Below are positions 4,503 through 35,261 of a stretch of DNA of 36,357 nucleotides, piece after piece. The DNA comes from a virus. The stretch spans positions 1 to 36,357 of the IMG/VR virus record IMGVR_UViG_3300012936_000060; one strand, given 5' to 3'. Position 1 is the first letter of the stretch; each line of letters opens with the position of its first letter. The translations under genes and the position numbers were made by a program. Below the pieces are notes generated by a model. The model worked only from the letters and a program-made list of their open reading frames with translations. It made no database searches and was not told the origin of the DNA.

Positions 4503-5900
4503 ATGAACTTTGAACTTGATATAGATTCTGAATCAATAGTTTTGAAAGAGGGTATTGACAATTCTTTCAGAGCAGTTTTTGATATACAGAACTTTTCTGT
4601 TGAACTTGTAAAAGAAAGACCTAATATTGATATTTTCTTTCAAGAACAGTTTGCTCCAGAAAAACATATACCCTTCGGTGTATCTTTAGATGAGAGTTCA
4701 AATGTCTATGATTCAGACTTTAGAAAGTTTTTTGGAATTCAAACTTTCAACATTTTCTGTGAGAGTAATCAACCGAAAGATTTCAACGAAGACTTTGAAA
4801 AGTTCTTTGGAGTTATTAGTTCTAGTTTAGATTTTTCAACTTTACAGAATCTAAAACCTCAGAAGAAGGTTATTGTAGAACCAGAAATAGTTCTAGAGAA
4901 AACTGAAGAAGTGGTTGAAGAAGAAGTGATTGTTGAAGTTGAGAAACCTTTCCCATTCAGAGTTTCATTAAATGAATCAAACTTTGTATATGATTGCGAT
5001 TTCCGAAAATATTTCAATATTCATAATTTTGAAACCTGTATTGATAGGTCTAAAAAGATTGATGATTTAGTTTTCGAAGAACATTTCCAAATCAAAAAAC
5101 AACCAGAATATGATTACAACATTATTGAGAATCTAAGGAAAGACCTCAATAGTCGAAAGATAGTTACAAGGGAAGAGAGGGAGAGTGTAGTCCTCAATGA
5201 ACCAGAAGTTTCTGTATTGGAAGAGGCTAAAGAATCCCTAGAACCTAATGTTGAAGAAACTACGAGTGTAATCAAAGAGAATCATTTCTACAAGATTGTG
5301 GAAGTTGATGCTCCAGAATACATTGAACCAGAACCTGAGATTGAAGTTTCATACAAAGATGAAGTTGAACAACAACTTGCCGATATGGAAAACAAGTATG
5401 AAGATTTGCTCCAAAAGACTAAAGAAGGGTATCAATCTCAATTGAATAAGATGGTGAACGATTTTTCTGAGTTTAGAAATCATATCAATCAACAAGTAAC
5501 TAGAATGTCTTTTATATCCTCTGCTACTGGTGGTGGTGCGGTAAACATTTTAGATATGGATGATGTTGATAAAACAAATCTAAGTAACGGATACACCCTT
5601 TCATATAATGACACTTTTAAGAAATTTGAGTTTATAAATCCTTCAACTGTCGGATCCTCAGCTTCCTTTGATAGTATGCAATCAGATGTTTTTGATATAG
5701 TTCAAGAAGATTTAGATAATGGATATATAGATTTATCCTTCTCAGCTGACAGTAACTATTACGATATTTCTGAAGTTCAGATAAATGGTGTTGTGAATTA
5801 TTACCCGTTATACAGTTTTACAACTTCTAGAAGAATAAATATTTCAAACCTAAATGTGGGCGTTGGTGATAAAGTTAGGGTTGTTTACATAAAAAGTTAA
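4503..5900 (+). CDS. Putative virion structural / fibre-like protein with acidic N-terminal repeats
   Basis: This 465-aa protein begins two bases after the portal stop codon, so translation is probably coupled. Residues 1-240 are acidic and contain a diverged repeat: IPFGVSLDESSNVYDSDFRK near residue 58 and FPFRVSLNESNFVYDCDFRK near residue 150, with partial copies (NEDFEKFFGV, FEEHFQI) between and after. Residues 290-340 look like a coiled coil (VEQQLADMENKYEDLLQKTK onward), suggesting an oligomeric rod. A glycine-rich hinge (SATGGGAVNILDMDDVDKTN) follows, then a beta-rich C-terminal domain ending in VGVGDKVRVVYIKS, a diverged relative of the ends of the next three proteins. The role is not known; a neck- or head-associated fibre is suggested by position beside the portal. 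No enzyme motif is seen. Confidence 0.8.
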   Translation: MNFELDIDSESIVLKEGIDNSFRAVFDIQNFSVELVKERPNIDIFFQEQFAPEKHIPFGVSLDESSNVYDSDFRKFFGIQTFNIFCESNQPKDFNEDFEKFFGVISSSLDFSTLQNLKPQKKVIVEPEIVLEKTEEVVEEEVIVEVEKPFPFRVSLNESNFVYDCDFRKYFNIHNFETCIDRSKKIDDLVFEEHFQIKKQPEYDYNIIENLRKDLNSRKIVTREERESVVLNEPEVSVLEEAKESLEPNVEETTSVIKENHFYKIVEVDAPEYIEPEPEIEVSYKDEVEQQLADMENKYEDLLQKTKEGYQSQLNKMVNDFSEFRNHINQQVTRMSFISSATGGGAVNILDMDDVDKTNLSNGYTLSYNDTFKKFEFINPSTVGSSASFDSMQSDVFDIVQEDLDNGYIDLSFSADSNYYDISEVQINGVVNYYPLYSFTTSRRINISNLNVGVGDKVRVVYIKS

Positions 5901-5910
5901 ACTTTTTTTT
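5891..5910 (+). terminator. Weak AT-only hairpin with T-run at the gene end
   Basis: AAAAAGT (5891-5897) and ACTTTTT (5901-5907) are perfectly complementary around a three-base loop that is itself the TAA stop codon, and the T-run continues to 5910. The stem has only one G-C pair, so termination would be weak. It may equally be chance in AT-rich DNA. Confidence 0.3.
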
Positions 5911-5928
5911 CAAAAACGTGAAAAAGTG

Positions 5929-5938
5929 TTATATATAA
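5929..5938 (+). promoter_or_regulatory. TTATATATAA element upstream of fibre gene (variant late promoter candidate)
   Basis: TTATATATAA lies 75 bases before the next start codon, preceded by AAAAAGTG and followed by TATAGA. The core TATATATA differs from the late box TATAAATA by one base. Closely similar elements stand before the next two paralogous genes (7786 and 9523), which argues for function. Promoter class is inferred, not shown. Confidence 0.4.
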
Positions 5939-6013
5939 GTATAGAATACGAAAAACTTTTGAAACTTGAGAACTTCATATAATGTTAGAACATGGAAACT
6001 CAGGGAGTAGAAA

Positions 6014-7756
6014 ATGCCTTTGAAAATAAAAGGTAATCAGATAAAACACTCTTCCATAGCACTGGAAAACCTTGAAGATATAGACTCTGGGAAAATATTA
6101 GGTAGTGATGGGGACGGAACTCCTTCTCTAATATCATCTCAAGATATAAGGTCTATAGCAGGATTAACAACAACTGATAACGTTCAGTTTTCCGAAATAA
6201 ATGGTAATCAGGGAGTTTTCGCATCCTTAGACGCTGATGGTAGTGTAGTATTCAAGTCTGATTTGGCTATTAGTGGAAACCTTGTAGTAAAAGGTGATAA
6301 AACTAATATAGATACAACTAATCTAACAATAGATGACCCAATGATATATCTTTCAAAGGGTAACTCTTCAAACTTATTAGATATTGGTTTAGTAGGTAGT
6401 TACAAATCAACAGATAGTGGATCTAGTATTATTTCAAATGCTGATTTCGATTATGATATATCATCTGATGATTGGATTGATATTTCAATAGGACATTCTT
6501 CAAGGTATTACGTTGAATGGAGATCCTCCCCTAAAGATTTACACCTTCGTACTATATCTGGAAATTCTGGGGAAATTGCTATGGGGGCAATGGTATATCA
6601 AGATATAGAATTTTCCGTTGACACCTCAGGCGATAAATCTTATAAATTTGATGTAGAAATCATGGTTGGATATGCTCATTCAGGGGTATATTGCGAACTC
6701 TCTTTCTGGGATAGATCGGTAACTCCAACTTTCCGCACGAGAGCAGATGCTGAAGATAATAAGAAAGTATATGTTGGATCAATTCCTGGAACATATAATG
6801 TTGGAGCTTGGAGTCGTAGACAAAGCGACGATTATCATACTATGAGCTCAAATACAATAACTCCATCATCTGACCTTTCTGATGGATTTAACATATCCAT
6901 TAAAGTTGGTAATGGAACTATCACAGGAAGTAACCCTTGGGTTGGTGGTGGTTCGATTTATATCGCTGATGTAAAAATATACGAAATTGATGTCGCAACT
7001 GGGAATGAAACGGAGCTTATCCTACCTTCAGAGAAATTTTCTGGATTATTTCGAGACGCTAGTGATGGTAAATTTAAGTTGTTTGATACTGGTGAAGATT
7101 TGTCTTCTAGTACGACAGTAACTCCAAACTACACGCATATTTCTGGTTATCAATATAGTGTAGGTAAATTGGTTGCTGATATTGAAGGTGATATAACCTT
7201 CTCAACTAATAGAACGTTCACTCTGAGTGGTGATTTAGGTGGATCGGCAACATTTGACGGTTCTTCTAACGTAAACATCTCATCTACCTTTCAAGACGAT
7301 TCAATACAATACACAAATATAGATTTTCTTGTAGATGAAGATAATATGAGTTCTGATTCTGAAACTAAAGTTCCAACACAACAATCTGTAAAAGCGTATG
7401 TCGATAGTTCAATTTCAACTGGTGGGTTTTCAGACTTGGAAGTTAAAGATGTGAAAATGGTTTCTGAAGTTTCATCTGGAGTCTTTGAATTTATCAAAGT
7501 GAAGTATGTAATAGACAATATTTCAGTGAATTCTTCCGATGAAAGTTCGAACTATGTGACAATCAGTACTGCTATTGATAGTGAATTTGAAAGTTTATCT
7601 ACACTTTATATAAATGGTCAAAGGTTTAGATATTCTTCCGATAACGGTTCGAACAATGACTACTGGATTTCTCAATCTGGGACTAGGATAAACTTCAGTA
7701 GTGGACTAATAAAAAATAATGATCAAATAGAAATAAAATATTTTATAAAATCTTAA
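6014..7756 (+). CDS. Tail fibre-like structural protein, paralogue 1
   Basis: This 580-aa protein starts MPLKIKGNQIKHSSIALENL, very like the starts of the proteins at 7855 and 9596, and the N-terminal part carries ISSQDIRSIAGLTTTDNVQF. Around residues 85-115 is a NLVVKGDKTNIDTTNLTIDD-type module, common in marine T4-like phage fibres and repeated in four other proteins here. Residues 130-345 are a unique insertion without close match in its paralogues, rich in Tyr, Ser and Asp, perhaps a carbohydrate-binding beta domain. It is followed by NIDFLVDEDNMSSDSETKVP and QQSVKAYVDS, shared with the 9596 protein. The last 75 residues (LYINGQRFRYSSD to IEIKYFIKS) form the shared C-terminal domain. GGGAG precedes the start codon. 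A virion fibre or adhesin role is likely; the location in the particle is unknown. Confidence 0.82.
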   Translation: MPLKIKGNQIKHSSIALENLEDIDSGKILGSDGDGTPSLISSQDIRSIAGLTTTDNVQFSEINGNQGVFASLDADGSVVFKSDLAISGNLVVKGDKTNIDTTNLTIDDPMIYLSKGNSSNLLDIGLVGSYKSTDSGSSIISNADFDYDISSDDWIDISIGHSSRYYVEWRSSPKDLHLRTISGNSGEIAMGAMVYQDIEFSVDTSGDKSYKFDVEIMVGYAHSGVYCELSFWDRSVTPTFRTRADAEDNKKVYVGSIPGTYNVGAWSRRQSDDYHTMSSNTITPSSDLSDGFNISIKVGNGTITGSNPWVGGGSIYIADVKIYEIDVATGNETELILPSEKFSGLFRDASDGKFKLFDTGEDLSSSTTVTPNYTHISGYQYSVGKLVADIEGDITFSTNRTFTLSGDLGGSATFDGSSNVNISSTFQDDSIQYTNIDFLVDEDNMSSDSETKVPTQQSVKAYVDSSISTGGFSDLEVKDVKMVSEVSSGVFEFIKVKYVIDNISVNSSDESSNYVTISTAIDSEFESLSTLYINGQRFRYSSDNGSNNDYWISQSGTRINFSSGLIKNNDQIEIKYFIKS

Positions 7757-7785
7757 AAAATATAGACTCTTATACTATGGTGAAA

Positions 7786-7795
7786 TTATATATAA
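7786..7795 (+). promoter_or_regulatory. TTATATATAA element upstream of fibre gene
   Basis: An exact second copy of TTATATATAA, 59 bases before the next ATG, in an AT-rich 98-base gap with no other recognisable signal apart from a strong AAGGAG ribosome site. It is the counterpart of the element at 5929. A role as a variant late promoter is inferred. Confidence 0.38.
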
Positions 7796-7854
7796 TAGGG
7801 TGAAGTGAGAAATATATAATAAAAAATACATTTTTTTAAAAAAAGGAGAAAAAA

Positions 7855-9429
7855 ATGGCTTTACAAATTAGAGGTGACCAGTTAACAGGCATTAAGAATG
7901 CTTCAATTCATAATGATGCTGCAATTAACTTGTCAAAATTATCTTTATCTGATAGTGGTGAAGAGTTTTCTGGAGATTTAACTTTTTCTGGTGATAACAC
8001 TCATTCTGGTTCTAACAGTCTTTCTGGATCTATTTCATTAACTGCTGCTGGTTCTTTGGATGTTTCTTCTGGAGCTTTAACTCTTGCTGATAATCAAATC
8101 AGTGGAGATAAAGTAGAAGGTGGAACCATAGCTTCAATAACTATTAACTCTTTATCTTCTGGAACAGTTGATATTGATGGCGGTGCAATTGATGGAACTG
8201 CTATTGGTTCAAGTTCTCATTCTACTGGTAAATTCACAACTCTTGAATCTACTGGAGTTGCTACTTTAGCTTCTGCTGTTGTTACTGGTAACTTGACTGT
8301 AAACGGAACTACAACTACTGTTAATTCCACTACTGTTACTGTTGACGATCCAATTTTCACATTAGGTGGAGATGGAGATGCTGCATCTGATGACAATTTA
8401 GATAGAGGTATCGAATTCAAATGGCATAACGGTTCTGCTGCTAAATTAGGTTTCTTCGGTTATGATGATTCCGAAGAAGTATTTACTTTCATTCAAGATG
8501 CAACTAATACTAGTGAAGTTTTCAGTGGAAGTGTTGGAAATGTTAAGTTTGGTGCTATTGAAGGTTCTTCCTTCTCTGACGGTACTATTACTGGTGTTAC
8601 ATTCTTAGATGACGATTCAATGGCTAGTGCTTCAGATACTACCTTACCAACTTCCGAGTCTGTTAAGGCATATGTTGATAGTAAGACTAGTTCTGGTAAC
8701 TTGAATCTTTCCGCAAAGGTTGACAACACGTCAATCGAACTTGATGATAACAATAAATTGTCTATTAAGGACTTAGGTGTTACTAATGCTATGCTTGCTG
8801 GTTCTATTGCTAACGCTAAATTGTCCAACAGTTCTGTAACTATTGGTAATACTGAGATTGATCTTGGTTCAACTTCCACTACTTTAGCTGGATTAACTTC
8901 TGTTAGTTCAACTTCCTTTGCTGGTAACTTAGCGGGTAGTGTTGCGGCTAGTGATGGAACTGTATTAGTTAATGCAACATCCAAGTCCCTTTACCTAACT
9001 GGTAATGACACTGATGATTTAACTGAAGGTTCCTCCAATCTTTATTATACTAATGAAAGAGCTGATGCTAGAATCGCAGCAGCAAGTATTGGTGACGTTT
9101 CTGACGTTTCTTTATCTTCAACTAAAGAAGGCGGAGACATGCTTTTATGGGATGGTTCCGATTACGTAAACGTTAAGATGGTTATTGATAACCATACTAT
9201 AGGTGCATCTCCTGGTAATTCAATTACTTTAGGTGCTAGTTCCGATTCTAATTTTTATCATATGGCTCAAGTATACTTGAACGGTCAGAAAATGAGATTT
9301 TCGTCTGATTCTACTTTAGATTCTGATGAAGATTACTATTTCTCTGCTGATGGTGAAATAACTTTCTCAAACAGTCTTATCGTTGAAGGCGATAACGTTG
9401 AAGTTATTCTATATGTTGCGCAATCTTAA
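7855..9429 (+). CDS. Tail fibre-like structural protein, paralogue 2
   Basis: This 524-aa protein starts MALQIRGDQLTGIKNASIHN and is low in complexity, with Ser, Thr, Gly, Asp and Ala dominating. It has triple-beta-helix-like alternation (GDLTFSGDNTHSGSNSLSGS), a NLTVNGTTTTVNSTTVTVDD module near residues 145-165, a TTLPTSESVKAYVDS motif near residue 270, and NAMLAGSIANAKL spacers near residue 310. Such proteins usually form trimeric fibres. The C-terminal 70 residues (VYLNGQKMRFSSDS to VEVILYVAQS) are the domain shared with its neighbours. The start codon has an AAAAGGAG site. A strong terminator follows, so this gene ends a transcription unit. Confidence 0.83.
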   Translation: MALQIRGDQLTGIKNASIHNDAAINLSKLSLSDSGEEFSGDLTFSGDNTHSGSNSLSGSISLTAAGSLDVSSGALTLADNQISGDKVEGGTIASITINSLSSGTVDIDGGAIDGTAIGSSSHSTGKFTTLESTGVATLASAVVTGNLTVNGTTTTVNSTTVTVDDPIFTLGGDGDAASDDNLDRGIEFKWHNGSAAKLGFFGYDDSEEVFTFIQDATNTSEVFSGSVGNVKFGAIEGSSFSDGTITGVTFLDDDSMASASDTTLPTSESVKAYVDSKTSSGNLNLSAKVDNTSIELDDNNKLSIKDLGVTNAMLAGSIANAKLSNSSVTIGNTEIDLGSTSTTLAGLTSVSSTSFAGNLAGSVAASDGTVLVNATSKSLYLTGNDTDDLTEGSSNLYYTNERADARIAAASIGDVSDVSLSSTKEGGDMLLWDGSDYVNVKMVIDNHTIGASPGNSITLGASSDSNFYHMAQVYLNGQKMRFSSDSTLDSDEDYYFSADGEITFSNSLIVEGDNVEVILYVAQS

Positions 9430-9456
9430 TTTTTAGAATATTAATCTAAATATTCG

Positions 9457-9483
9457 GGAGTGGGGAAACCCACTCCTTTTTTT
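9457..9483 (+). terminator. Strong intrinsic terminator
   Basis: GGAGTGGG (9457-9464) pairs perfectly with CCCACTCC (9469-9476) around a GAAA tetraloop and is followed by seven T (9477-9483). The stem core GGAGTGG/CCACTCC is the same as in the terminator at 10793, so the two 3' ends look like copies of each other. Confidence 0.92.
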
Positions 9484-9522
9484 ATAAAAAATAATATTTT
9501 TTTCATTTTTTGGGTAAAAGTA

Positions 9523-9532
9523 TTATATATAT
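9523..9532 (+). promoter_or_regulatory. TTATATATAT element upstream of fibre gene
   Basis: Third member of the element set (compare 5929 and 7786), preceded by GTAAAAGTA and followed by TATTAGA, 64 bases before the start codon at 9596. Downstream, the leader contains TTGAAACTTGA (9544-9554), also present in the leader at 5959-5969, so promoter-like element and leader seem to have been duplicated along with the gene. Confidence 0.4.
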
Positions 9533-9595
9533 TATTAGACATATTGAAACTTGAATTCCATCGTAATGATAGATTATGAGATTCGAGGAGTAAAA

Positions 9596-10771
9596 ATGGC
9601 CTTAAAACTAAGAGGTAACACTCAGATAAAACTAAAATCTATCGAGTTAGAACACTTGAAAGATTTATCTCCAGGTCGAATTTTAGGTAGACCTGAAACT
9701 GCTTCTTCTAATTATGATGCCGATTCAGCATCCCCTTCCGAACTTCAGGGTGAAGATATTAGAAGAATTGCCGATTTACACACCGATGATAATGTAACTT
9801 TCGCTAATATAACAGGTTCAGTTGGAAATTTCAGCTCAACATTAACAGTACAAGGTAGTGGTACAGTAGCTTCAAACTTAACAGTTGAAGGTGACTTGAC
9901 CGTTTCCGGAACAACAACAAATATTGAAACAACAAATTTACTAGTAGAGGATCCATTAATTCAAATTGGAAAATCTAATGACGCAGATTCGAAAGACTTA
10001 GGATTTTTCGGTCTATATAATGACGGTTCTGACAAGTATGCAGGTCTTGTTAGAGATGCCAGTGATTCTGGAAAATTTAAACTATTCACAACTACAGAGG
10101 ATATAACGTCCGCAACAACTGTAGATTTCACAGACTTTTTAGATGGTACTAGTTATGCTTCAAAAGCTATAATGGTTGCAGATATAGAGGGTAATATTAC
10201 ATATGAAAATGATGTAACTTTTACACTTTCTGGTGATGTTTCTGGTTCAGCTACTTTTTCTGGAAGTAATGATCCAACAATATCAGTAACTATCGGAGAT
10301 AGTTCAGTTCAGTTATCAAATATTGATTTTCTTGTAGATGAAGATAATATGGACTCCGATTCCGAAACTAAAGTTCCAACGCAACAGTCTGTAAAAGCAT
10401 ATGTTGATTCTAAAGTTTCTGGTGGTGGTTTTTCAAATTTGGCAGCAAAGCAAATGCAAATGGTTTATAATAATGGAACAAGTAATGTTTTTGTTAATGT
10501 ACAACAAAATGTAGTGTATCATTCAGTCACTTCATCTGAAGCTTCTTCTGGTGAAATATCTTTATCCGTTGCTTCCGAAGATCAATTTGATGAACTATCT
10601 GACGTTTTTTTGAATGGTCAAAAAGTTAGATTTGGAACATCGACAGAAGTTGATACCGATACAACTAGAGAGTACTATTTTGATAGTTCTACAAGTAAGA
10701 TACATTTTCAAAGTAGTCTTTTGGTAGAAGGTGATAAACTAGAAATTGTATACTTCAGTGTAGTTCAATAA
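9596..10771 (+). CDS. Tail fibre-like structural protein, paralogue 3
   Basis: This 391-aa protein starts MALKLRGNTQIKLKSIELEH at an ATG with a GAGGAG site; an in-frame ATG at 9551 lacks such a site and would add 15 unrelated residues. It is the closest relative of the 6014 protein. Both share LKDLSPGRILG/LEDIDSGKILG, a DIRRIADLHTDDNVTF/DIRSIAGLTTTDNVQF segment, the NLTVEGDLTVSGTTTNIETT module, NIDFLVDEDNM-SDSETKVP and QQSVKAYVDS. It lacks the roughly 200-residue insertion of that protein and so looks like the bare scaffold. The C-terminal domain (VFLNGQKVRFGTSTE to LEIVYFSVVQ) is shared with its neighbours. A structural fibre role is likely; the exact place in the virion is unknown. Confidence 0.83.
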   Translation: MALKLRGNTQIKLKSIELEHLKDLSPGRILGRPETASSNYDADSASPSELQGEDIRRIADLHTDDNVTFANITGSVGNFSSTLTVQGSGTVASNLTVEGDLTVSGTTTNIETTNLLVEDPLIQIGKSNDADSKDLGFFGLYNDGSDKYAGLVRDASDSGKFKLFTTTEDITSATTVDFTDFLDGTSYASKAIMVADIEGNITYENDVTFTLSGDVSGSATFSGSNDPTISVTIGDSSVQLSNIDFLVDEDNMDSDSETKVPTQQSVKAYVDSKVSGGGFSNLAAKQMQMVYNNGTSNVFVNVQQNVVYHSVTSSEASSGEISLSVASEDQFDELSDVFLNGQKVRFGTSTEVDTDTTREYYFDSSTSKIHFQSSLLVEGDKLEIVYFSVVQ

Positions 10772-10781
10772 ATTTTAGTTT

Positions 10782-10789
10782 TATAAATA
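10782..10789 (+). promoter_or_regulatory. T4-type late promoter overlapping a terminator
   Basis: Exact TATAAATA, 10 bases after the stop codon of the upstream fibre gene and 3 bases before the terminator stem. With T4 late promoter spacing, transcription would start near 10795-10796, inside the left arm of the hairpin, so new transcripts would lack part of the stem while incoming ones would terminate. Confidence 0.7.
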
Positions 10790-10792
10790 GTT

Positions 10793-10822
10793 GGGAGTGG
10801 GTGTCCACTCCCAATTTTTTTT
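10793..10822 (+). terminator. Strong intrinsic terminator after fibre paralogue 3
   Basis: GGGAGTGG (10793-10800) pairs perfectly with CCACTCCC (10805-10812) around a GTGT loop, then AA and eight T (10815-10822). The stem core matches that of the terminator at 9457. Confidence 0.92.
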
Positions 10823-10841
10823 ACATTATAAGGAGTATAAA

Positions 10842-11114
10842 ATGGAAAAAGAAACAATCTATTCACTAAAACTTTCACAATCTGAAATCGAATATTTGAT
10901 ACAAGTTTTAGATACTATTGTAAAATCTCACGGTCTTCAAGTTGCCGAAAAATGCGCAAGTCTTCACAAAATTTTAGTAGAAACTGCTGAACCGATTCCA
11001 GAACCGAAAGAGGAAGTGGTTGAAGAAGTTTCCTTGGAAGAAGTTGAAGACGAGTTGGAGCAAATCATGGAAGTTCCTAAGAAAAGAAAAAGGTCAACCA
11101 AAAAGAAAAAATAG
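10842..11114 (+). CDS. Small charged protein, unknown function
   Basis: This 90-aa protein has a predicted helical N-terminal half (YSLKLSQSEIEYLIQVLDTI onward, to about residue 48), then a proline- and glutamate-rich acidic linker, and a strongly basic tail (KKRKRSTKKKK). The start at 10842 has an AAGGAG site; an alternative upstream in-frame start at 10791 would translate through the terminator hairpin. It lies between two late promoters and before the 1874-aa fibre gene. I do not recognise the family. A small assembly partner of the fibre is one possibility, since small charged genes also precede the 1489-aa and 1602-aa fibre genes. Confidence 0.75.
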   Translation: MEKETIYSLKLSQSEIEYLIQVLDTIVKSHGLQVAEKCASLHKILVETAEPIPEPKEEVVEEVSLEEVEDELEQIMEVPKKRKRSTKKKK

Positions 11115-11118
11115 ACCT

Positions 11119-11126
11119 TATAAATA
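11119..11126 (+). promoter_or_regulatory. T4-type late promoter upstream of 1874-aa fibre gene
   Basis: Exact TATAAATA, 4 bases after the preceding stop codon and 35 bases before the start codon of the giant fibre gene. The spacing leaves room for a short leader that includes the GGGAG ribosome site. Confidence 0.75.
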
Positions 11127-11161: not shown

Positions 11162-14100
11162 ATGTCCAATCATATGCCAATACTAGTTGAAGATAGAAAT
11201 ACATTCGAGCAATGGAGACTCGCTACAAATCAAATAGTAAAGAGGCTAAATCTATTATATAATGCAGATAATACTTTAAGAATACAGGGTTCAGCCATTT
11301 TTAGGGATGATATATCTGTAGGTAGAAATTTAAATGTTACTGGTTTTGCGAATATATCAAAAAATCTAACAGTTGACGGTGATCTTGTAATAAAAGGAAC
11401 CACCACTACAGTTAATAGTGAAATAGTCACAATGGGTGACAAAGTTATAACTTTAAACTGGAGTGAAGAAAATCCTAATTATTACGATTCTAAATTGATT
11501 TCTGGTTTAGAAGTTAATTTGGGAACTGATGATAGTAATCTTTTTGCTACTGGTTTAACTACCATACAAGAATTTTTATATAATACTGATAAAAATGAAA
11601 CGACTTTCTATCTACAAGATAAGTTGACCATAACAATTCCCGCTTCATCTGACCCAGACGGAAATGTTATTCCGGAAACTCAACAAGATGTTATTTGGCC
11701 TACAGACTATTCTGGGGAAAAAACTATTGTTTTTCAGCAAGGTGAAATAAAACATAACTTTGTTATAAAACAAATTCTAGAACCAACAGAAGGTCTTTCC
11801 AACCCTGTTGTAACCGTTGAGGGTAATGCTGCTTTTATTTCTGAAAGTACAAATGACCCTATTGCTTTTGAAATATATAATTCAAAAAGACAGTTCTATT
11901 GGGATGAGGAGAATGCTAAATGGGTTCTAAAAGGTGCTATTCAGATACAAGGAGATGTAGAAGCTGAAGATGGATTCTTTGACAGAATTAATATTGGAGT
12001 TGAAAGAAAGTTAGATTCTGATGATTTTTTATCTATTGTAGTTGAAGATACTGTAACTTCAGATCCTTTATTAGTAAAAACTTCCGAGGTTGATAAAGTT
12101 GGAGGTTTTTTATGGACTGTTGATAAAGATGCTACAGATACTATTACTGATAAAAGATTGAGACTTGAACTTACAGATGGAACTTCTGATATAGAAACTA
12201 ATATTTTATTAGACCCAACCAGTAATTCTTTTATTATGAAGAAACTTGGAATTGGGAAAAGGACTCCTGAAGTTTCACTAGATGTTATAGGTAATGTAAA
12301 AGCTTCAGCAAGATTCGGTTCAGGTTCTGGTACAGTTGGTAATCCTGCATATCATTTCAATAGCGATAGTGATACTGGTATGTACCTAATAGATACTGGA
12401 AAGTTGTCTTTAGCAACAGGAGGTTCTGATAGAATTACAATAGATGCTGATGGAAAGGTTGGTATTGGAACAACAAGTCCAGTTGGATCATTAGAGGTTA
12501 TGACTGATGGAGATACAAGTTCTGACGGTATTATATTAAGAAGTTCCAGCACTGGAGGAAGAACCCTTCGACTATGGGCTACTGGAGATAAGGCACACAT
12601 AGGTGCTGGCGGGGGTACAGAAGATTTGATATTGAACCATGCTGGTGGAAATGTCGGAATCGGAACTTCAAACCCTCAACATCATTTTTCAGTCTATGAT
12701 GGGGATCAAGGTATTGATTTTCACATTAATTATGCTGGAGGTGCTTGGAATAGGATACTGAGTTACGATAGAACAACCGATGGCGTTGAACACCCTATTA
12801 AAATTCAAGGATTGAAGTTCACTGTAGACACAAATGGAACTGAAAGATTTAGAGTTCATGATGACGGAAATGTTGGTATTGGAACAAATATTCCTGTCGC
12901 AAAATTATCTTTATTTGAACCGTCCGAAAATGTTTCATTATCTTTACAAACATCAAATAAAAGTCGATGGTGGATAACTGCTGACGGTGACTCGGAAGCA
13001 ACAAATGCTCTAAGAATAGGGGGGACGGGAACCTCAGAACCATCCCAAGGATCAATTAATATCAATAGTTCTGGAAAAATCGGTATTGGAACTAATGCAA
13101 CTCCTCATAAATTAACCGTTTTAGGTGACTTGGGTGTTGGGGATAGTTTATATGGATCAACTCTTGATGGGATAGTATTCAGTTCAACTTCTACTAGCAG
13201 TTATCATAATACAATAAAACATACTAATACTGGATTGGAATTTGATAATACTGCTACTGTAGACAGAAATTATTCCTTTTTAGGCGGAAATGTCGGAATT
13301 GGAACAACAGCACCGAATACAAAACTACACGTAACAGATAGTAATGAAATCGTTGCAACACTCACAAACTCAACGAATGATGATAACACAAAAACGCTTT
13401 TAAGGTTTTCACAAAATGTTGATTCAGATAATGTATCTGGAAATATCGGAATTAATAGACTTGGTGCTAATGCTGGGTGTGGTTTTGAAATAAATTTAGC
13501 AGACTCAGATGGTAATGAGCAGAACAGATTAACAATTCTTGAAGGTGGAAATGTCGGAATTGGAACTGAAAGTCCTGATGAGTTGTTACATTTAGAAAAA
13601 TTGACAGATGGTGTTAATGAAGGTAATCCTGGAATAGTATTAGAAAATTCAGATCAAAAATGGACAATCTTTAATAGAGGAAGTTCCTCCGATAGATTTC
13701 AGATCAATGATATGACTGATCCGAACGCAACAACTGCACCTTTTAGGATTTTTCCAGGAGCTCCAACAGATTCAATTCATATTTCGGGTAATGGAAATGT
13801 TGGTATAGGTTTATCTAATGCAACAGAAAAACTTCATGTTGATGGGGCGATTGCTCTTACATCTCAAAGTAGCACCCCACCTTTAGCTCAATTTTATACC
13901 TCAGGTTCAATACTTTTTGCTGGATCTACACTTTGGGGGCATAATGGTACTCAATGGATAAGTCTTTTCAGTGGTCAAGCTTTTGATCCGACAAATGCTA
14001 TCGACTATTCTACAAATAACTGGTTGAGAGTAAATAGAGAAGATACATACGGTATAGCTGATAATAACGGTGACCCGATTGCAGATGCTGCTGGAACGGA

Positions 14101-25269: not shown

Positions 25270-25563
25270 ATGAGTTTAGAAGAAAAAACTATAGAAGACA
25301 AAATTGAAGTACTTGAATCAGGTCATGTTCAAGTTAGATCCAAAACAGTAATCCTAAAAGACGGAGAACCTATTGCTGAAAATTATCACAGAAAAGTTAT
25401 CTCACCAGGAGATGATTATTCAGAAGAAAGTGAAAAGGTTCAGTCAATTTGTGAATTAATTCAAACTCAGGAAGTTGTTGATGAATATCTAGAAAAATTA
25501 GAATCTAATAATCCAATACTTCCTGAAACTGAGGAACCTGCTTCAGAAGAACCAGTAGAATAA
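25270..25563 (+). CDS. Small acidic protein, unknown function
   Basis: This 97-aa protein has a beta-like N-terminal part (KIEVLESGHVQVRSKTVILK, then AENYHRKVISPGDD), a helical segment and an acidic proline-rich tail (ETEEPASEEPVE). The pattern of an N-terminal strand region with HVQVR and (Y/F)HR-VISPGDD is one I associate with small proteins near fibre genes in marine T4-like phages, but no function is known to me. A late promoter stands directly upstream and the 1489-aa fibre gene begins 27 bases downstream. Co-expression with that fibre is likely. Confidence 0.75.
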   Translation: MSLEEKTIEDKIEVLESGHVQVRSKTVILKDGEPIAENYHRKVISPGDDYSEESEKVQSICELIQTQEVVDEYLEKLESNNPILPETEEPASEEPVE

Positions 25564-25590
25564 TAAAAAAATAAAAAAGAGGAGAGGGAT

Positions 25591-28500: not shown

Positions 28501-30060
28501 TGGGGTAAGTCTGGTGGGACTAGTGTTACATACGTTGTTCCTGAGTTTAAAGATTTTAAAAAGAATCACAATGACAAATATAAATTGGGAATTTATAGTG
28601 CTAATGGTTACACTGAAGTTATCATAGAAGATTTAATATCAGTTAATCCGACATCTAGCGCCCATTATAGGGTTTATTGGGATGATGAATATGGAACAGA
28701 CTCTGTAATTTCGTTATATTTTACTGGTAATGACCTTTACTTAGTACTCGGAACTGGTGGAGGTAGTGGTTCAAACAATTCTTTTTATATTAATAGAATT
28801 GATATGTTCACTTACGAAGATTATAAGTGGGATTTGACTAATTCATCAGTATGGCCCAATGGCCCTTCTGATCACCCTACAAATGGGGCATTGACTTCCG
28901 CAGTGACAGTTTATAGAGAAAAATATGCAATACTTAGTCACATAAACACTAGCGATTTAAATCTCGATCAATATATTTTTGTTTATGATATATCAAACGG
29001 TTCCGTTACACAAATAAATACTTCAGGTCTTGCAAGACCTACAGTTTTATCAAATATTGACGGTTCTGCACTCTCTTTAACTGATAATGATTTTTACTTG
29101 ATTAGTCAACATTCATATGAAAGTGATCAAGGAACACACAGTATAATGAAAGTTGATACAAGTGATGAAGACCCTTCAAATTGGACAGTAACTGGTTATG
29201 GAACTAATGGATCCCATGAAAGAGCTTGTAGAAGGTTAGGTGTTGTGATAGATGGTGATATCTACTATACTGCATATTACCGAAATTATGTTAGTGCAAG
29301 AAGAGATATATTAAAATTAAGTGGATCAACAGTTTCTGTTTTTGATACGTCAACTATATTGACTAATGCTTCATGGGGAAGTTCTTGGATATATCAAATT
29401 TATTCACTAAAAAATATCAATTCGAATTATATAGCTCTTCATTTGATTCACAGTACTAAAAAGAGAGGTGTGGTTATTTTTGACACATCAACCAATACCT
29501 TCGTTGGTGATGTTATACAAATTAATAGTCTCCATTCTTCATATGGAAGCGGAAGTGTTGCACCTGTTGTTGATGAAGATGGAGTGGTTTACTGTATACC
29601 ATATTTAGATGCCATGAGTTCAACTCAAGCAAAGGTTACAGTTTTCAACATATCTACTGGAACTTCAAGTAAGGTTCATTATGATTTAGGTGATGCTTCA
29701 ATATGGGATGCTTCTCACGGCGATCATCAAATTTCAACTGCGATGTATATAACTGATAATAAAATATTTGGGAACAATCATTATAACGTAGGTAATAATC
29801 GTGGAATTCCTTATTATGATATTCAAAAACAATCAGGAAAAGTTTTACGACAACCAATAATAGGGGGGCATCCAGAATCTGATGGACATTCAGGGGATAA
29901 AACCTTCTACATGATTTCAATGAACAGGTTTAAAGATGGTAGAATGGCATCTATAGTCAACTACTATGATTCTAGTGCAGGCACGCATAATGTTGACACT
30001 TTGAGAACTAAGAAAAAATACATATCAATTTTTAATCCCGTTGAAACTGAAGCTGAATAA
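25591..30060 (+). CDS. Giant tail fibre protein with predicted C-terminal beta-propeller
   Basis: This 1489-aa fibre begins MAAINFPASPNVNDTHTHNG, then WKWNGVHWS, an N-terminal motif shared with the 1602-aa protein and typical of phage fibres. Residues 200-520 carry a few GxxGIGT modules. Residues 540-770 have YHDGSEKLNTKSTGVDITGD-type beta units. DADLLDGQQGSYY near residue 897 is another common fibre spacer. From about residue 1080 the style changes: seven units with aromatic strands such as KYAILSHIN (1111), DFYLISQHS (1167), DIYYTAYYR (1223), NYIALHLIH (1279), VVYCIPYLD (1332), KIFGNNHYN (1391) and TFYMISMNR (1438), spaced about 56 residues apart. This suggests a beta-propeller tip for receptor binding. 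A GAGGAGAGGG ribosome site precedes the ATG. Confidence 0.9.
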   Translation: MAAINFPASPNVNDTHTHNGKIWKWNGVHWSANTESEGSIQSSWHALGSTNYSSSTSPQYDYKYYRITNDITYDYNRVYEVIIDADDNAGHVAIYHLYLSSHNPSSTVALTKHDRIIMSHVSGKPTMMRVALDSNEHVWIAATQKWGNIRIRGLHENEDVSSMPFADSQLASIPSPQFNQTTPFIWDGDTNTLALMPVSNLNGDFGIGTATPQSELDVNGIIRAGNNTSTGGGTALRVQYSSAGDHTANFGAQYSSGAPMLGYCVESSQSAVDTFVSSADNAGFGRGALVVSHELDYWSAGGQTTTVGNPVTMYNRFHIDSSGNVGIGTNTSTNSRLTLSGDSASVGVAIALDDTNASGKTYGIRSDVGKLIIRDFDESADRMKIDSDGSVNIGNFRIEQGGTGSYLEGVSSIAFRNTTNTWASAANHGIMSTDQTGTFTDDISINSYHDISVRLDANDNHSDGYFRIYKDTTTSSSSTLSHYFGHNTTGLNLSYMSGNVGINTSPRTDHYRLSMSGYIHMNNNNIDYVNQLHFNDNVRFYDGGDDKYLRFKYGNSTEGGIKFYDGDDSLKGYIYGSDTGFGLLSSAGEWAVRIYGNGETQLYHDGSEKLNTKSTGVDITGDLHANGAHGISTNGWLRNSHSAEGLYNETNQNHFYSASQNYWHINTNSSQNHGGLVVYSQHNGTGANATARKGALYFSTSGFGLLDENWKWSFQAKDSEARLCYDGTVKLNTISTGVGVSGNLGVTGGLNVTGAITEGGTALVDKYASKDHLRSLGSIYLNDGSGSTITTSTLIAELEGMGAFDSYVSVGKTIWSYAGNDDLTDAGRFQETAGTSFITWTDNSNDSSRGNITGLFICPTTGASAGKVFIYNDQGPTYTPGWREVWTNTSDGSGSGLDADLLDGQQGSYYLDYNNLTNTPSSGSSQSTTSIDTEYNTIAYPKKVNPTPITLFSDPSISNSNFASTNTSVYWGKSGGTSVTYVVPEFKDFKKNHNDKYKLGIYSANGYTEVIIEDLISVNPTSSAHYRVYWDDEYGTDSVISLYFTGNDLYLVLGTGGGSGSNNSFYINRIDMFTYEDYKWDLTNSSVWPNGPSDHPTNGALTSAVTVYREKYAILSHINTSDLNLDQYIFVYDISNGSVTQINTSGLARPTVLSNIDGSALSLTDNDFYLISQHSYESDQGTHSIMKVDTSDEDPSNWTVTGYGTNGSHERACRRLGVVIDGDIYYTAYYRNYVSARRDILKLSGSTVSVFDTSTILTNASWGSSWIYQIYSLKNINSNYIALHLIHSTKKRGVVIFDTSTNTFVGDVIQINSLHSSYGSGSVAPVVDEDGVVYCIPYLDAMSSTQAKVTVFNISTGTSSKVHYDLGDASIWDASHGDHQISTAMYITDNKIFGNNHYNVGNNRGIPYYDIQKQSGKVLRQPIIGGHPESDGHSGDKTFYMISMNRFKDGRMASIVNYYDSSAGTHNVDTLRTKKKYISIFNPVETEAE

Positions 30061-30079
30061 ATAAGTAAAGGAGAATAAA

Positions 30080-30388
30080 ATGTCTGAAGAACAAGTTATA
30101 GATTATGATTCATTAGATGATCATCATAGAATGAGTGAAGGATTACCTTTTGTCAATGACATTCAATTGTCGAAAGATAGAAAAATTCAAAGATTAAAAA
30201 ATCTCTTAAGAGAGAAATTGAAAGACACTGACCACGTTCACACTTCAGAATTTTTAACGGAAGAAGAAAAAAAAGAAATTCTATCAGAAAGAAAAGAGTT
30301 AAAAAATAAATATGATTTAATAAAATCTGAAATTGAAAATAGTGAAACGAATGAAGAGCTCGGTATTATTTCAATTAGAGATTTATAA
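30080..30388 (+). CDS. Small charged helical protein, unknown function
   Basis: This 102-aa protein has a short N-terminal part (DYDSLDDHHRMSEGLPF) and a mostly helical, highly charged body (KDRKIQRLKNLLREKLKD, then LTEEEKKEILSERKELKNKY), probably coiled coil. It lies between two giant fibre genes, 19 bases after one and 40 before the other, with an AAGGAG site. The family is not recognised. By position it could be a fibre chaperone or adaptor; nothing in the sequence proves this. Its stop codon overlaps the next late promoter box. Confidence 0.72.
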   Translation: MSEEQVIDYDSLDDHHRMSEGLPFVNDIQLSKDRKIQRLKNLLREKLKDTDHVHTSEFLTEEEKKEILSERKELKNKYDLIKSEIENSETNEELGIISIRDL

Positions 30389-30391
30389 ATA
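30384..30391 (+). promoter_or_regulatory. T4-type late promoter upstream of 1602-aa fibre gene
   Basis: Exact TATAAATA that overlaps the stop codon of the 102-aa gene and lies 37 bases before the next start. A second perfect octamer at 30410-30417 sits too close to the start to leave a ribosome site in the transcript, so this first box is the better candidate. Confidence 0.7.
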
Positions 30392-30428
30392 CATATAGTC
30401 AAAATAATATATAAATAAGGAGAGGGAA

Positions 30429-33400
30429 ATGGCGTCAATAGACTTTCCAAATAACCCACAAATAGATGATATACACATTCATGAAGAATTAGCTTGGTCT
30501 TGGGATGGAGTCAGTTGGAAAAGACTATTTGAAGATCATAATTTTTCATCCAAAATCGGAGTCGGAACTTCTGCACCTCAAGAAGAAATTCACATAAGAT
30601 CAGTAACACCAGTAATTCGAATAGAAGATATTGATGGTGGTTACATGCAAATTGTAGGGTCTGACGGAAGTATAAGATTCGATGCCGATAATACAAACTC
30701 CATTGCTGATACAAATGTTAGATTTATAATTGATGGTTCTGAAAAATTTAGAATCGACTCTGACGGAAATGTCGGAATTGGGACATCTTCGAATCCGTAT
30801 GGGTATAGATTAGATGTAACAGGGGGTCGTGCTATCGTTCGTGGAAGTACCGAAGGTGTTTTAGTGCTTGATGACTCTGGCGTTGTAGATGCTTCAAGAC
30901 CGATTCAATACATCTCTTCCGATGGGGGATATCTTAAATTAGGGAACGCTAATAGATCATCTACTAACGGTACAACCAATTCAGTAAATCGACTAATAAT
31001 TGACCCTGATGGAAATGTTGATATCGGAAATTCTTCTAGTAATGTTGAACTCAAAGTTAATGATCATAAAGTATATCATGAAGGAAATTTAGAAATTGAT
31101 ACTGCTATTGTTTTCTCAACTGCTATGCAAGACACTCCAGAACAGAAATGGGTTTCATTCACAATCCCTCATATCGGAGGTTCTGGGACTTCCAACTATT
31201 ATTATTTTGATGTTTACGGATATTCTGATATTGGGACAATGGATTCTCAACTACATTACAGATTATACATCCATGTTAGAGCTGATGGTACAAATGAAAA
31301 TGCTATAAACATCAAACCTTTATTGATAATGGACGATCCTTTAGGTGGAGATGCTTCAGAAGAAAGGTTCAATTTTTACTACACTCAAACTTCTGTTACA
31401 GATAGTAAAGTTTGGATTCATCTTCCAGAAGACTATTCAGCTTTAGATATTTTATCTAGTAAGTTAGAATCTGGAGGGTTAAGTCCTGCAATATCAAGTA
31501 TGTTTGCTGAAACTTCAACACAACCTTCTGGATTAATTTCAGTGCCTGTTATAGAATCTTTGAGAACTGAAGGTGGGGATAACCCTAGAACATATATAAA
31601 AGGAAGTGTTGGTATTGGAACTGCCGCCCCTTCAAGAGTTTTACATGTTATGGACGGAACTAATGATGGTTCTGGTGGAGTAAAAGTTAGTAGTTATCTT
31701 CCAGTTATAGAACTTCAAGATATGAGTGCAAATGCTGGTAGTTCAAAAATTCAACAAGATCAATTGGCCATGAAAATAGGCCCAACAACTTCAGATACAT
31801 ACCTAGTTCTCAATACAGAAGATACTGAAAGAATGAGAATTGATAAAGATGGGAATGTTGGTATTGGGCAATCACCGACAAATAAACTCTCAGTTAATGG
31901 TAGAGCTGATTTTGATAGAATTGTTTTTACTAACGCATATCAAGCAGGGACTGAAAACTGGATAATATCCACAGGTGATACAGGAACTATCGCTGGGAGT
32001 AGTGGATACACCCATAATGGTGGTATAGGACTTTTTGCAAATGCGACATACCATAGTTCTGGAAATTTCAGTTTACAAGATACTTCATCATTAAGTGCAT
32101 CCGCTATCTCTGTTCAAGAAGATGGGCACATAAGATTTGCTGCTGTTGATGGACTTTCGTCTACAACTAATGTAAAATTACTTGCAAGTTATACGAGAAT
32201 GACTATTGAACCAAGTGGAAAAGTTGGTATTGGAACGCAAGCTCCATTAGCTCCTCTACACGTAGTAGTTCCTTCAACTTCTGCTGGTGGAACTTATGCA
32301 GGCGTTTTCGAAAATTTAAGTTCACAGGATTCAAGTCAACATGGTGTAAAAATTATTGTTGAACCTACTCCAAATACAGGAGTTGGAAACTATCCTCTGG
32401 TTATTTCTAATGATGGTGGTGTAACAAACGATTGTTTTCTAATAACAAATGACGGGAAAGTCGGTATTGGAACTACACCTTCAGCAAAGCTTCATATTGA
32501 AGGAGATAAGGACGCTACAAATTTAATCATAGGTGCACCTTTGCACACTGTTAGCGGTGGAGGTTTAGCAGATTACAGTGAAATACTTTTCGATAACAAT
32601 TATGTTACTGGATCTAGTGGTACGGCATACATAAGACATTATGCAAATTCACATCAAAATTCTGAAGGTGCACTTTATTTTGGTATAACTTCATCAACAG
32701 GAACTACATCTTCAGCACTTGCAATTCGAGGTACGGGAGAAACTTATTCTTACAATGATATAAGAATAAGTAAATCATTTCCAAAATTAATTCTAGACAG
32801 TCCTAGCACTTCAACTACTGGAGATGATTGGACTACTGAAGGTGCCATGATCGTATTAGGGGAATCAGCCGATGATGGGGCAGGAACAGGAACTGCCGCA
32901 CTTTACCTAACATATAACGGTAATGGTAACTCATATATTGGTACTGGTGGAGTGAATACTTCTACAGGTGTTCCTAATCAAGGGTATATACATTTTCCAT
33001 ATAACTTAGATCGGATAAATCTTGTAGCTGATAGGGTAGGTGTTGGAACGACAACTCCACAAGAACAATTGCACGTTGCAGGGAATGCATATATAACTGG
33101 AAATGCTGACATACAAGGTAGTATTGATATTGGAAGTGAAGTTGTTTTATCTGAATCTACAGATAGAGCTGACTTGTTACAAATAAGTTCTACTACAAGT
33201 CAGTGGGGTGGATTGCAAATCAGAAATAGTTCTGGCGAAGGTCGATGGTCTTTTATGACTGATGGTGAACATGCTGGAATCTATAATGACGAAGATAACC
33301 AATGGCATATACATATGACAGAATCTGCTGGTGTAAGATTATACTATAATGCTGTCAACAGATTGGAAACAACATCTACTGGAGTTGATATAACTGGTTC

Positions 33401-35237
33401 CTTAACAACTACAGGAACTCAATATTTCGACTTCACTGGCGGAACTCTTATGAGAGTTGGTAGCAATAGTGGTTCTGATGTAACTCTAATGAGGGTTAAT
33501 GCGAATTCGATTGCTAATGACTCTGGTGATTACGGTTTTAGTGTAAAATACATGGGAAGTAGAGCTAATAATGCAAATTCATATTCCATATTTTCAGATA
33601 ATCAAGCGTCAGGAACACAAATAGAAGCATTTAAAATAAATCAAGATGGAAAATTATATCAGGGTGGAACTAATGAAATTTGGCATGCTGGAAATTTGGA
33701 TGCTTCTTCATTAGGTAAATGGGATGATGCAGCTACAGCTGGTGGAATATATCGAAATTCAAGGGTCGGAATCGGAGACTTTTCTAATACTTTTGTAGGT
33801 GATGCACTACACATAGATATGGGTAGTGACTCTAGTAACGGATTAATACAAATTTCTTCAGATGCACAGACGAACACTTACGAGCTCGGAATGTATTTAA
33901 GAAAAACTCAAAATAATTTGTATGATTTTAAAGTGATGAGTCATCAAGATATGTTTAAACTTCAATATCGTGATTATTCTAATGCATTCGTTGACGCATG
34001 GACTTTCGTTCCACCAATTACTTCACAATGGGCAAATGGATTGGGTGTATTTGCTGGCAAATCAAGTTTTTCAGAAGATGTAGTGGTTGGAGATACTTTA
34101 GGGATTGGAACCTCCTTACCTGTTGACTCTGGAACACCATCTTCAACTACAACCAGAACAAAACTTCACATAGATAAAGGTTCTATTTTCATTAACAGTC
34201 CATGGCCTGGTTCTCAAGCATCTCCTATACGTAGTGAATATTGGGATACATTCGATTCTTCTAAGCAGAATAACATTGACAAAAACGTGATAATATTTGG
34301 AAATCCTTGGGCTTATGGAGCAAACAACGGCAATAATTACTCTTGGAGTGATATTAAACATAGAGTCGGTGTTGGTACTTATGATATAAAACTTACCACT
34401 AATGATGGGGATCATATTTGGAATGAAGATACAAATAGTTGGAATGGTCCGTATTATGACAATCCTGCAATAGGTTCCACTTGGTTATCTTTATGGATGC
34501 ATGATGATGATAATGCTGCATTTTTTAGGGTTGGAACAAAATATGCTAGTAATACTTATACTGGAGACGCAACCATTCAAGGAGATGCTTTTCAAGTATA
34601 TCAAAACGGTTTCACAAGATCATATGGTGCTATTAAAATAGGGGAAAGGGTAGCAGAACCATTTGATACAAATGATGCAAAAGGGTGTATACGATACAAC
34701 TCAACTACAGACGATTTTGAAGGAAATGTTACTGGATATCCAAATGGTTGGACATCACTTACTGGTGGGATAGGAAGTTTAGTATTATTTCCTACACCTG
34801 TAGTTTTTAAGAATCGTGATGGGGTTACAACTCTTGCTGATTTACCAATTGTTAAAAAATCAGACGGTGTAACGAATAGTGTCTGGAGAAGATTGAGTTA
34901 TAGTGCTGTAAGTTCTGAAATTCCAGCTGGGTCTGTTCTATTCTGTAGAGTTATGGGGGCTAGTGGAGGTTATACTTCCAATTCCCAATTTTATATAAAC
35001 AATGACGTTTCTGGTTCATCCGACGAGGCTATAGATTGGTGGGAACATGCTTGGATGATAAATTATGATGCTGGTGCAACAGCAGGTGGGGGTAATTTTT
35101 CTGGATATTCTAACCATGTTCAAGACGGATATTTCCTACCCAATGAAGGCGTTAACTCAAGCACTGATTCGGTACTAATAAGTTATTATGGAGGAGTTCA
35201 AAAAATATTAGTGTTAGGTTACGTTCGAATGTTTTAA
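30429..35237 (+). CDS. Giant tail fibre protein, paralogue of the 1489-aa fibre at its N-terminus
   Basis: This 1602-aa fibre begins MASIDFPNNPQIDDIHIHEE, then WSWDGVSWKRL, matching the start of the 1489-aa protein; this part is likely to bind the same partner or play the same attachment role. About ten GNVGIGTxxPxxKLHV-like modules are spread through residues 38-1250. DEDNQWHIHMTE and LYYNAVNRLETTSTGVDITG near residues 960-990 are related to units in the 1489-aa protein. The last 150 residues (from LVLFPTPVVFKNRDGVTT near 1451 to YGGVQKILVLGYVRMF) form a distinct C-terminal domain with no recognised family and no S74 motif; this is the likely variable tip. A GGAGAGGG site lies before the start codon. 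It is the last fibre gene before the head genes resume. Confidence 0.9.
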   Translation: MASIDFPNNPQIDDIHIHEELAWSWDGVSWKRLFEDHNFSSKIGVGTSAPQEEIHIRSVTPVIRIEDIDGGYMQIVGSDGSIRFDADNTNSIADTNVRFIIDGSEKFRIDSDGNVGIGTSSNPYGYRLDVTGGRAIVRGSTEGVLVLDDSGVVDASRPIQYISSDGGYLKLGNANRSSTNGTTNSVNRLIIDPDGNVDIGNSSSNVELKVNDHKVYHEGNLEIDTAIVFSTAMQDTPEQKWVSFTIPHIGGSGTSNYYYFDVYGYSDIGTMDSQLHYRLYIHVRADGTNENAINIKPLLIMDDPLGGDASEERFNFYYTQTSVTDSKVWIHLPEDYSALDILSSKLESGGLSPAISSMFAETSTQPSGLISVPVIESLRTEGGDNPRTYIKGSVGIGTAAPSRVLHVMDGTNDGSGGVKVSSYLPVIELQDMSANAGSSKIQQDQLAMKIGPTTSDTYLVLNTEDTERMRIDKDGNVGIGQSPTNKLSVNGRADFDRIVFTNAYQAGTENWIISTGDTGTIAGSSGYTHNGGIGLFANATYHSSGNFSLQDTSSLSASAISVQEDGHIRFAAVDGLSSTTNVKLLASYTRMTIEPSGKVGIGTQAPLAPLHVVVPSTSAGGTYAGVFENLSSQDSSQHGVKIIVEPTPNTGVGNYPLVISNDGGVTNDCFLITNDGKVGIGTTPSAKLHIEGDKDATNLIIGAPLHTVSGGGLADYSEILFDNNYVTGSSGTAYIRHYANSHQNSEGALYFGITSSTGTTSSALAIRGTGETYSYNDIRISKSFPKLILDSPSTSTTGDDWTTEGAMIVLGESADDGAGTGTAALYLTYNGNGNSYIGTGGVNTSTGVPNQGYIHFPYNLDRINLVADRVGVGTTTPQEQLHVAGNAYITGNADIQGSIDIGSEVVLSESTDRADLLQISSTTSQWGGLQIRNSSGEGRWSFMTDGEHAGIYNDEDNQWHIHMTESAGVRLYYNAVNRLETTSTGVDITGSLTTTGTQYFDFTGGTLMRVGSNSGSDVTLMRVNANSIANDSGDYGFSVKYMGSRANNANSYSIFSDNQASGTQIEAFKINQDGKLYQGGTNEIWHAGNLDASSLGKWDDAATAGGIYRNSRVGIGDFSNTFVGDALHIDMGSDSSNGLIQISSDAQTNTYELGMYLRKTQNNLYDFKVMSHQDMFKLQYRDYSNAFVDAWTFVPPITSQWANGLGVFAGKSSFSEDVVVGDTLGIGTSLPVDSGTPSSTTTRTKLHIDKGSIFINSPWPGSQASPIRSEYWDTFDSSKQNNIDKNVIIFGNPWAYGANNGNNYSWSDIKHRVGVGTYDIKLTTNDGDHIWNEDTNSWNGPYYDNPAIGSTWLSLWMHDDDNAAFFRVGTKYASNTYTGDATIQGDAFQVYQNGFTRSYGAIKIGERVAEPFDTNDAKGCIRYNSTTDDFEGNVTGYPNGWTSLTGGIGSLVLFPTPVVFKNRDGVTTLADLPIVKKSDGVTNSVWRRLSYSAVSSEIPAGSVLFCRVMGASGGYTSNSQFYINNDVSGSSDEAIDWWEHAWMINYDAGATAGGGNFSGYSNHVQDGYFLPNEGVNSSTDSVLISYYGGVQKILVLGYVRMF

Positions 35238-35261
35238 TAAAAACTATGAATAAATGTATAT

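Follow-up and report, generated by a model that had tools for sequence, protein, structure and literature searches.

The 36,357-nt IMG/VR virus record IMGVR_UViG_3300012936_000060, analysed over its full length (hereafter, the window), encodes on a single strand the T4-type structural genes gp18, gp19 and gp20, followed by a 30.7-kb block of fibre-type genes and then by prohead-core and gp21 genes. We consider it likely that this block is a host-recognition cluster (HRC) that was relocated within the T4 gene order by a block swap with gp13–gp20 and has been much enlarged in the window. The carrier belongs to a little-known marine lineage of the T4 superfamily.

In T4, gene 20 is directly followed by genes 67, 68 and 21. 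In the window, gp18–gp19–gp20 and then orthologues of 67, 68 and 21 make up a T4-superfamily structural module in which the block separates gp20 from 67. The initial annotation had placed eight fibre-like genes and three small genes between portal and prohead core, with the order of the flanking head genes intact. Our analysis confirms the gene content, which comprises the fibre-type genes A465, B580, C524, D406, E1874, F2804, G1489 and H1602 (hereafter, A to H; 29,256 bp of coding sequence) and three small open reading frames (ORFs) of 107, 97 and 102 aa (s107, s97 and s102). The head-gene order is indeed intact. A 57-aa gp67-like gene had been overlooked; with this gene present, the T4 order 67–68–21 is unbroken, and the block fits precisely into the 20/67 junction.

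The site of the block is shared by a clade. The portal of the window is 82–98% identical to that of 16 IMG/VR loci, the nearest named phages being below 50%, and fibre genes occupy the gp20–gp67 site in every testable close relative. Gene A lies directly after the portal in all 15 clade loci that extend far enough, and a B/D-type gene comes next in 13 of 14. The complete clusters of the relatives G002 (a 137-kb contig; 10.5 kb) and G010 (10.6 kb) both read A, B, D, s107, E, F, gp67, core and gp21, and the right-hand part of the cluster in G028 has the same order. Together with the window (31.5 kb), these two are the clade members with both flanks, and the window carries three times the fibre DNA of its relatives at this site, its extras being C, longer E and F genes, and s97–G–s102–H. 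The same eight genes therefore do not recur in most relatives; it is their recurrence that the initial annotation had named as the sign of a stable ancestral arrangement. Its description of the region as a cassette holds insofar as the flanks (gp20 and gp67–68–21) are fixed and the content varies, but the location is constant across the clade, indicating that the block is not mobile. Likewise, a fresh insertion in the window is contradicted by a block common to the whole clade, of which just the size and content are unusual in the window.

Among T4-like phages, the gp20–gp21 gap spans 0.2–1.2 kb in nine isolates (T4, HTVC008M, P-TIM40, S-CREM2, BUCT-ZZ01, phiM7, Va3, Serratia 3M and S-RIM2). 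It is at most 2 kb in 100 of 114 scored IMG/VR loci, the sole locus above 10 kb being a clade member, and ranges from 0.3 to 9.0 kb in the 112 other T4-like loci with both genes, some distant lineages having gaps of 3–9 kb. The portal and gp21 surveys were seeded with exact peptides and may miss divergent relatives. Long gaps are not hidden by truncation, since no non-clade portal locus with at least 2 kb downstream lacked gp21. Loci with gp21 and at least 5 kb upstream yet without gp20 were limited to clade members and L101, a contig of the sister lineage described below.

Pelagimyophages and cyanomyophages carry their HRC in the VrlC–gp14 interval; in pelagimyophages its mean length is 44.6 kb (PMC7029224). 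In agreement with this position, HTVC008M, P-TIM40 and S-CREM2 carry their fibre cluster in the VrlC–gp13 interval. In the clade, this canonical site is empty: VrlC and gp13 are separated by 239–263 bp in eight clade contigs, with a conserved structured RNA between them. Furthermore, the block genes have isolate homologues at the canonical site, namely for A (S-CREM2 gp129), C (P-TIM40 gp107), E (HTVC008M and S-CREM2 gp128), F (P-TIM40 gp107 and S-CREM2 gp126) and H (S-CREM2 gp128). Because fibre homologues occupy the canonical site in isolates and this site is empty in the clade, a relocated host-recognition cluster is the best reading, and it fits better than the insertion into the T4 order proposed initially. 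A simple insertion of alien genes is ruled out by the clade-wide sharing of the block and the empty canonical site. A single swap of adjacent blocks would convert VrlC–[fibres]–[gp13..gp20]–gp67 into VrlC–[gp13..gp20]–[fibres]–gp67, the swap and its direction being those we infer. The clade probably started from a 10.5-kb cluster, A–B–D–s107–E–F, and growth to 31 kb in the window would have involved the gain of C, the lengthening of E and F, and the addition of s97–G–s102–H.

Several observations weigh against a relocation. The homology to canonical-site genes is partial and runs domain by domain, and VrlC also adjoins gp13 in lineages with an ordinary gp20–gp21 gap (G034 and G035), so relocation is not needed to empty the canonical site; for the same reason, this adjacency is no longer taken as specific to the clade. 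In the distant lineages L129 and L140, the fibre-like genes in the gp20–gp21 gap begin with an A-like gene, and the site may thus have housed fibre genes before the clade arose. Moreover, complete clusters besides that of the window number only two, and the 31-kb form is known from a single contig, the patterns used having found no second contig with H in IMG/VR.

These observations bear on the strongest alternative, independent gain and loss, in which fibre genes were built up de novo at gp20–gp67 from an existing A-like gene and the canonical cluster was lost separately. We regard this as possible but clearly the less probable course. It draws on the collagen or fibre-like genes in the gp20–gp21 gap of L129 (9.0 kb), L140 (7.5 kb) and L132 (5.0 kb) and on the VrlC–gp13 adjacency in other lineages, whereas the canonical-site homologues of A, C, E, F and H and the same blocks in a third order in a sister lineage speak against it. 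A search of isolates with the A-like domain of L140 gave no match. Contigs of other T4-like lineages, G034–G037 (L277–L286), have VrlC beside gp13 and, where the contig reaches, genes for very large proteins (2729–3689 aa) ahead of gp8; these lineages, too, may keep their fibres at another site.

The sister lineage is represented by L101, whose gp21 is 88% identical, and the gp21 tree supports clade plus sister at 100/100. In L101 the order is fibre, RNA, gp13, gp67-like, core and gp21, with gp14–gp20 not in between. In L270, a contig of similar divergence, gp055big is directly followed by gp14–gp15–gp16–gp17–gp18; we infer that the two contigs represent one lineage. Clade portal and sheath queries for the surroundings of the sister portal returned the fragment L371 only. 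The same blocks in a third order point to block moves. On balance, we slightly favour the view that in this lineage the T4 structural order, usually regarded as fixed, is fluid around the fibre cluster: a gp13–gp20 or gp14–gp20 block would have been placed differently at least twice (in the window clade, and in the sister contigs with gp055big–gp14 and fibre–gp13–gp67), gp13 and the RNA element would move as a unit, and breakpoints in the fibre cluster would serve the movement of entire structural blocks and not just domain swaps.

The RNA element is a conserved stretch of about 100 nt immediately upstream of gp13, which in the clade is the VrlC–gp13 site (L084:13519–13618, about 53.5 kb in G002; L016, L010, L017, L014, L276, L181 and L275; and L101:3633–3735). 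It comprises stem P1, nested hairpin P2, hairpin P3, a P2–P3 kissing loop and stem P4. The kissing loop reads CUACC/GGUAG and varies to CUGCC/GGCAG and CUGCA/UGCAG. In total, 99.6% of cells are paired and nine pairs have changed on both sides, a result matched in 0 of 500 shuffles. A comparison with Rfam gave no match up to E = 1. Among 68 sources, the element occurs in the clade and its sister only, and it accompanies gp13 in both gene orders.

Sequence identities, computed over the longer protein, separate the flanks from the fibres. Between the window and G002, gp20 (88%), core (78%) and gp21 (97%) are conserved, whereas A (50%), B (24%), D (37%), s107 (62%), E (8%) and F (9%) diverge to different extents; thus, as in an HRC, the content varies among relatives between syntenic flanks. 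G002 and G010 are closer to each other (gp19 96%, gp21 98%, s107 96%, E 95%, D 84%, B 55% and F 52%), and here the divergence is localized within the proteins. F is 93–100% identical over the first 240 aa, 16–60% in the middle and 87–97% at the S74 end, and B is 73–85% identical across the first 420 aa and 37–62% beyond. This is the usual signature of receptor-facing parts exchanged between conserved anchors: the conserved N- and C-terminal parts would anchor and fold the fibres, and the central parts would be traded between phages.

All eight large genes in the block have fibre-type features, and the block is thus a cluster of tail-fibre genes, as is an HRC. A (4503–5900; all features given here are on the plus strand) encodes a putative fibre or connector with a homologue in S-CREM2 gp129 (E = 9e-12); profile matches gave it no family name. 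Its AlphaFold2 model, of low confidence (pLDDT 48), has a disordered N-terminus with repeats, a coiled coil and a beta head, through which A may resemble fibre proteins. The fold matches of the model include fibre and tail-collar proteins and are otherwise uninformative beyond 'fibre-like'. The model recalls a whisker-like trimer and A always lies directly after the portal, which suggests a second alternative, namely that the products, A foremost, are head- or neck-attached fibres like the fibritin whiskers and that the position of the block reflects co-assembly with the head. We regard this as rather unlikely, as the S74, Mtd_N and long-tail-fibre-like parts are typical of tail fibres, the homologues come from tail-fibre clusters, and gene position does not fix position in the virion.

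B (6014–7756) matches phrog_697 and tail-fibre PHROGs and is a paralogue of D. C (7855–9429), the extra gene relative to G002 and G010, matches phrog_697 (3e-43) and P-TIM40 gp107 (3e-35). D (9596–10771) also matches phrog_697; its start is probably ATG 9596, giving 391 aa, and not the listed TTG 9551. The small charged gene s107 (10842–11114) probably starts at ATG 10842, giving a 90-aa product with 62–65% identity to its positional counterpart in G002. E (11162–16786) matches tail-fibre PHROGs and carries a C-terminal Peptidase_S74 domain at about 16508–16663 (Pfam PF13884, 1.2e-12), the predicted intramolecular chaperone of an S74 fibre. Its PDB matches are 6f45, a long tail fibre distal subunit, and Bdellovibrio fibre proteins (8ond); we take 8ond and 8ol4 to be the Bdellovibrio mosaic adhesive trimers. 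F (16804–25218) begins with an Mtd_N match (3e-11), matches fibre PHROGs including phrog_697, has a shaft of tandem repeats at 19425–21023 (Tandem Repeats Finder) and diverges in its C-terminal half; the same Pfam scan gave no match for a C-type-lectin variable region.

The extension begins with s97 (25270–25563), which matches phrog_6228 and has a homologue near a tailspike gene in phage DSL-LC05. It is followed by G (25591–30060), which matches annotated tail fibres of Aeh1, S-8S55 and P-SSM2 and is not found in the G002 and G010 clusters. The small charged gene s102 (30080–30388) has a relative at 124.3 kb in G002, beside G-like fibres, and H (30429–35237) matches phrog_9942 (1e-20) and S-CREM2 gp128; a PDB search with H gave no match. 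B, C, D and F also match further structural or fibre families; for G and H, the matches are to tail-fibre families or to proteins annotated as tail fibres. These matches argue strongly that A to H are receptor-binding fibres, and the products of the block would be virion adhesion fibres; multiple fibres may correspond to several receptors.

The motif TATAAATA, which we take to be the T4 late-promoter core, occurs seven times in the window, always on the plus strand. Six copies are intergenic (0.46 expected; reached in 0 of 2000 shuffles), at 149, 10782, 11119, 25243, 30410 and 35262, before gp18, s107, E, s97, H and gp67, respectively. G002 and G010 share the copies that precede s107, E and gp67, and G028 keeps their spacing. 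Between D and s107, the promoter at 10782–10789 is followed by a terminator at 10789–10816, a layout also present after D in G002, G010 and G028. Every clade member reaching that point has this strong terminator behind D, and a near-copy (GGGAGTGGGG..CCCACTCC with a T-run, 9456–9477) follows C in the window only, the relatives having one. This second copy is a trace of a unit, made up of one fibre gene and its terminator, that was duplicated or gained. The motifs suggest that the block is transcribed late, in several units delimited by T4-type late promoters and terminators.

The same signals bear on whether s97–G–s102–H (25270–35237) was fused to an ordinary 20-kb cluster by chimeric assembly, which we consider improbable. 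The extension is seen in a single contig, no contig with H was found, and relatives of s102, G and H lie at a separate locus of G002 (124–128 kb). Nevertheless, base composition is even across the window, and the added units carry their own late promoters. At the right edge, the stretch from promoter to gp67 start hardly differs from its G002 counterpart: the junction of H with promoter and gp67 agrees almost nucleotide for nucleotide with the one that follows F in G002.

An active switching device alternating host range within one phage, which the many paralogous fibres, the repeats and the name Mtd_N, taken from a switching phage family, might evoke, is highly improbable, as all genes lie on one strand and neither a reverse transcriptase nor a serine recombinase is present in the window or G002. 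Reverse transcriptase (PF00078) was absent from the window and from the 137-kb G002, which may be incomplete, and serine recombinase (PF00239) was absent from both, tyrosine recombinases not having been searched for; a diversity-generating retroelement or a recombinase switch was rejected for these reasons. The broad or switchable host range proposed initially thus found no direct support, and what is seen is the exchange of central domains between phages.

The block can be compared with several known systems. Like the HRC of pelagimyophages and cyanomyophages, it is a large variable run of tail-fibre genes with homologous fibres inside the structural module and syntenic flanks; it differs in lying at gp20–gp67 instead of VrlC–gp14 and in containing only fibre-type and small genes, whereas the HRC carries glycosyltransferases and other cargo (PMC7029224). 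No Pfam match of that cargo kind was found among the block genes. The sequence relatives of A, C, E, F and H in S-CREM2 (gp126–gp131; OR473000) and P-TIM40 (gp107; NC_028663) lie in the VrlC–gp13 interval, and the gp20–gp21 gap of these phages is 0.2–0.25 kb. E is partly alike in sequence to the Bdellovibrio mosaic adhesive trimers, which are bacterial surface fibres and not virion parts (PMC10769870). The hyperplastic region g15–g18 of cyanomyoviruses, as described by Millard 2009 and cited in PMC2984593, is likewise a lineage-specific variable insert among conserved structural genes; it lies at another site and, in that account, holds metabolic genes and no fibres. Fibre genes are also grouped inside the structural module of T4 and expressed late, genes 9–12/wac forming a block between gp8 and gp13; the present block has another position, is far larger and has no detected orthology to the individual genes.

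The position of the fibre genes in this group shows that rearrangement of the T4 gene order around the host-recognition part is possible. The T4 structural order is usually treated as a conserved scaffold that varies at set points, from which the clade and apparently its sister deviate, and the movement of structural blocks in lytic phages, as well as the role of fibre clusters in promoting such moves, becomes testable. In practical terms, fibre annotation or host-range studies limited to VrlC–gp13 would overlook the adhesins that these marine phages encode, and gp20, a survey marker for T4-like phages, directly adjoins a variable block.

The flanking genes have clear family matches (tail sheath, tail tube and Portal_T4, with PHROG E-values of 1e-53 to 1e-189). 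On the left are gp18 (tail sheath; 210–2111; phrog_23, 4e-109; late promoter at 149–156), gp19 (tail tube; 2129–2683; phrog_45, 1e-53) and gp20 (portal; 2758–4500; Portal_T4, 2.5e-169). A 17-bp hairpin with a T-run in the gp19/gp20 intergenic region (2701–2739) is kept in clade members, and ATG 2758 is the likelier portal start because the listed GTG 2725 falls within this hairpin. On the right, the late promoter at 35262–35269 and the gp67-like gene at 35289–35462 mark the edge of the block (35262–35462); this ORF, kept in six of six relatives checked, is small and charged and has both the character and the position of T4 gp67. It is followed by a gp68-like prohead core gene (35463–36005; 180 aa; 78–84% identity in the clade; a weak phrog_4187 match) and by gp21, the prohead protease (36007–36357, cut by the window end; Peptidase_S77, 7e-19; 97–99% identity to G002 and G010). 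The gp67 and gp68 assignments are made mostly by position and character. Searches of the window for tRNA genes and Rfam families found none. Clade tail sheaths differ in length (562–767 aa); some 300 residues at the C-terminus are kept (about 80%) and the remainder is divergent, and the exposed portion of the sheath may also be under diversifying pressure.

As a host clue, portal homologues were sought in 85k genomes and none was found. A contig binned in a Flavobacteriales metagenome-assembled genome (L291, PCBP01000063.1) carries eight syntenic clade genes, including a phage FtsH protease 90% identical; no portal was found elsewhere in that assembly. Because this is a single binned viral contig, it offers a weak lead to a Flavobacteriales host. 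The 137-kb G002 itself encodes FtsH (AAA plus peptidase M41), a RimK-like ATP-grasp protein and a zeta-toxin-like kinase (L086:16932–20000 and L087:7069–8964; 96.9–109 kb in G002).

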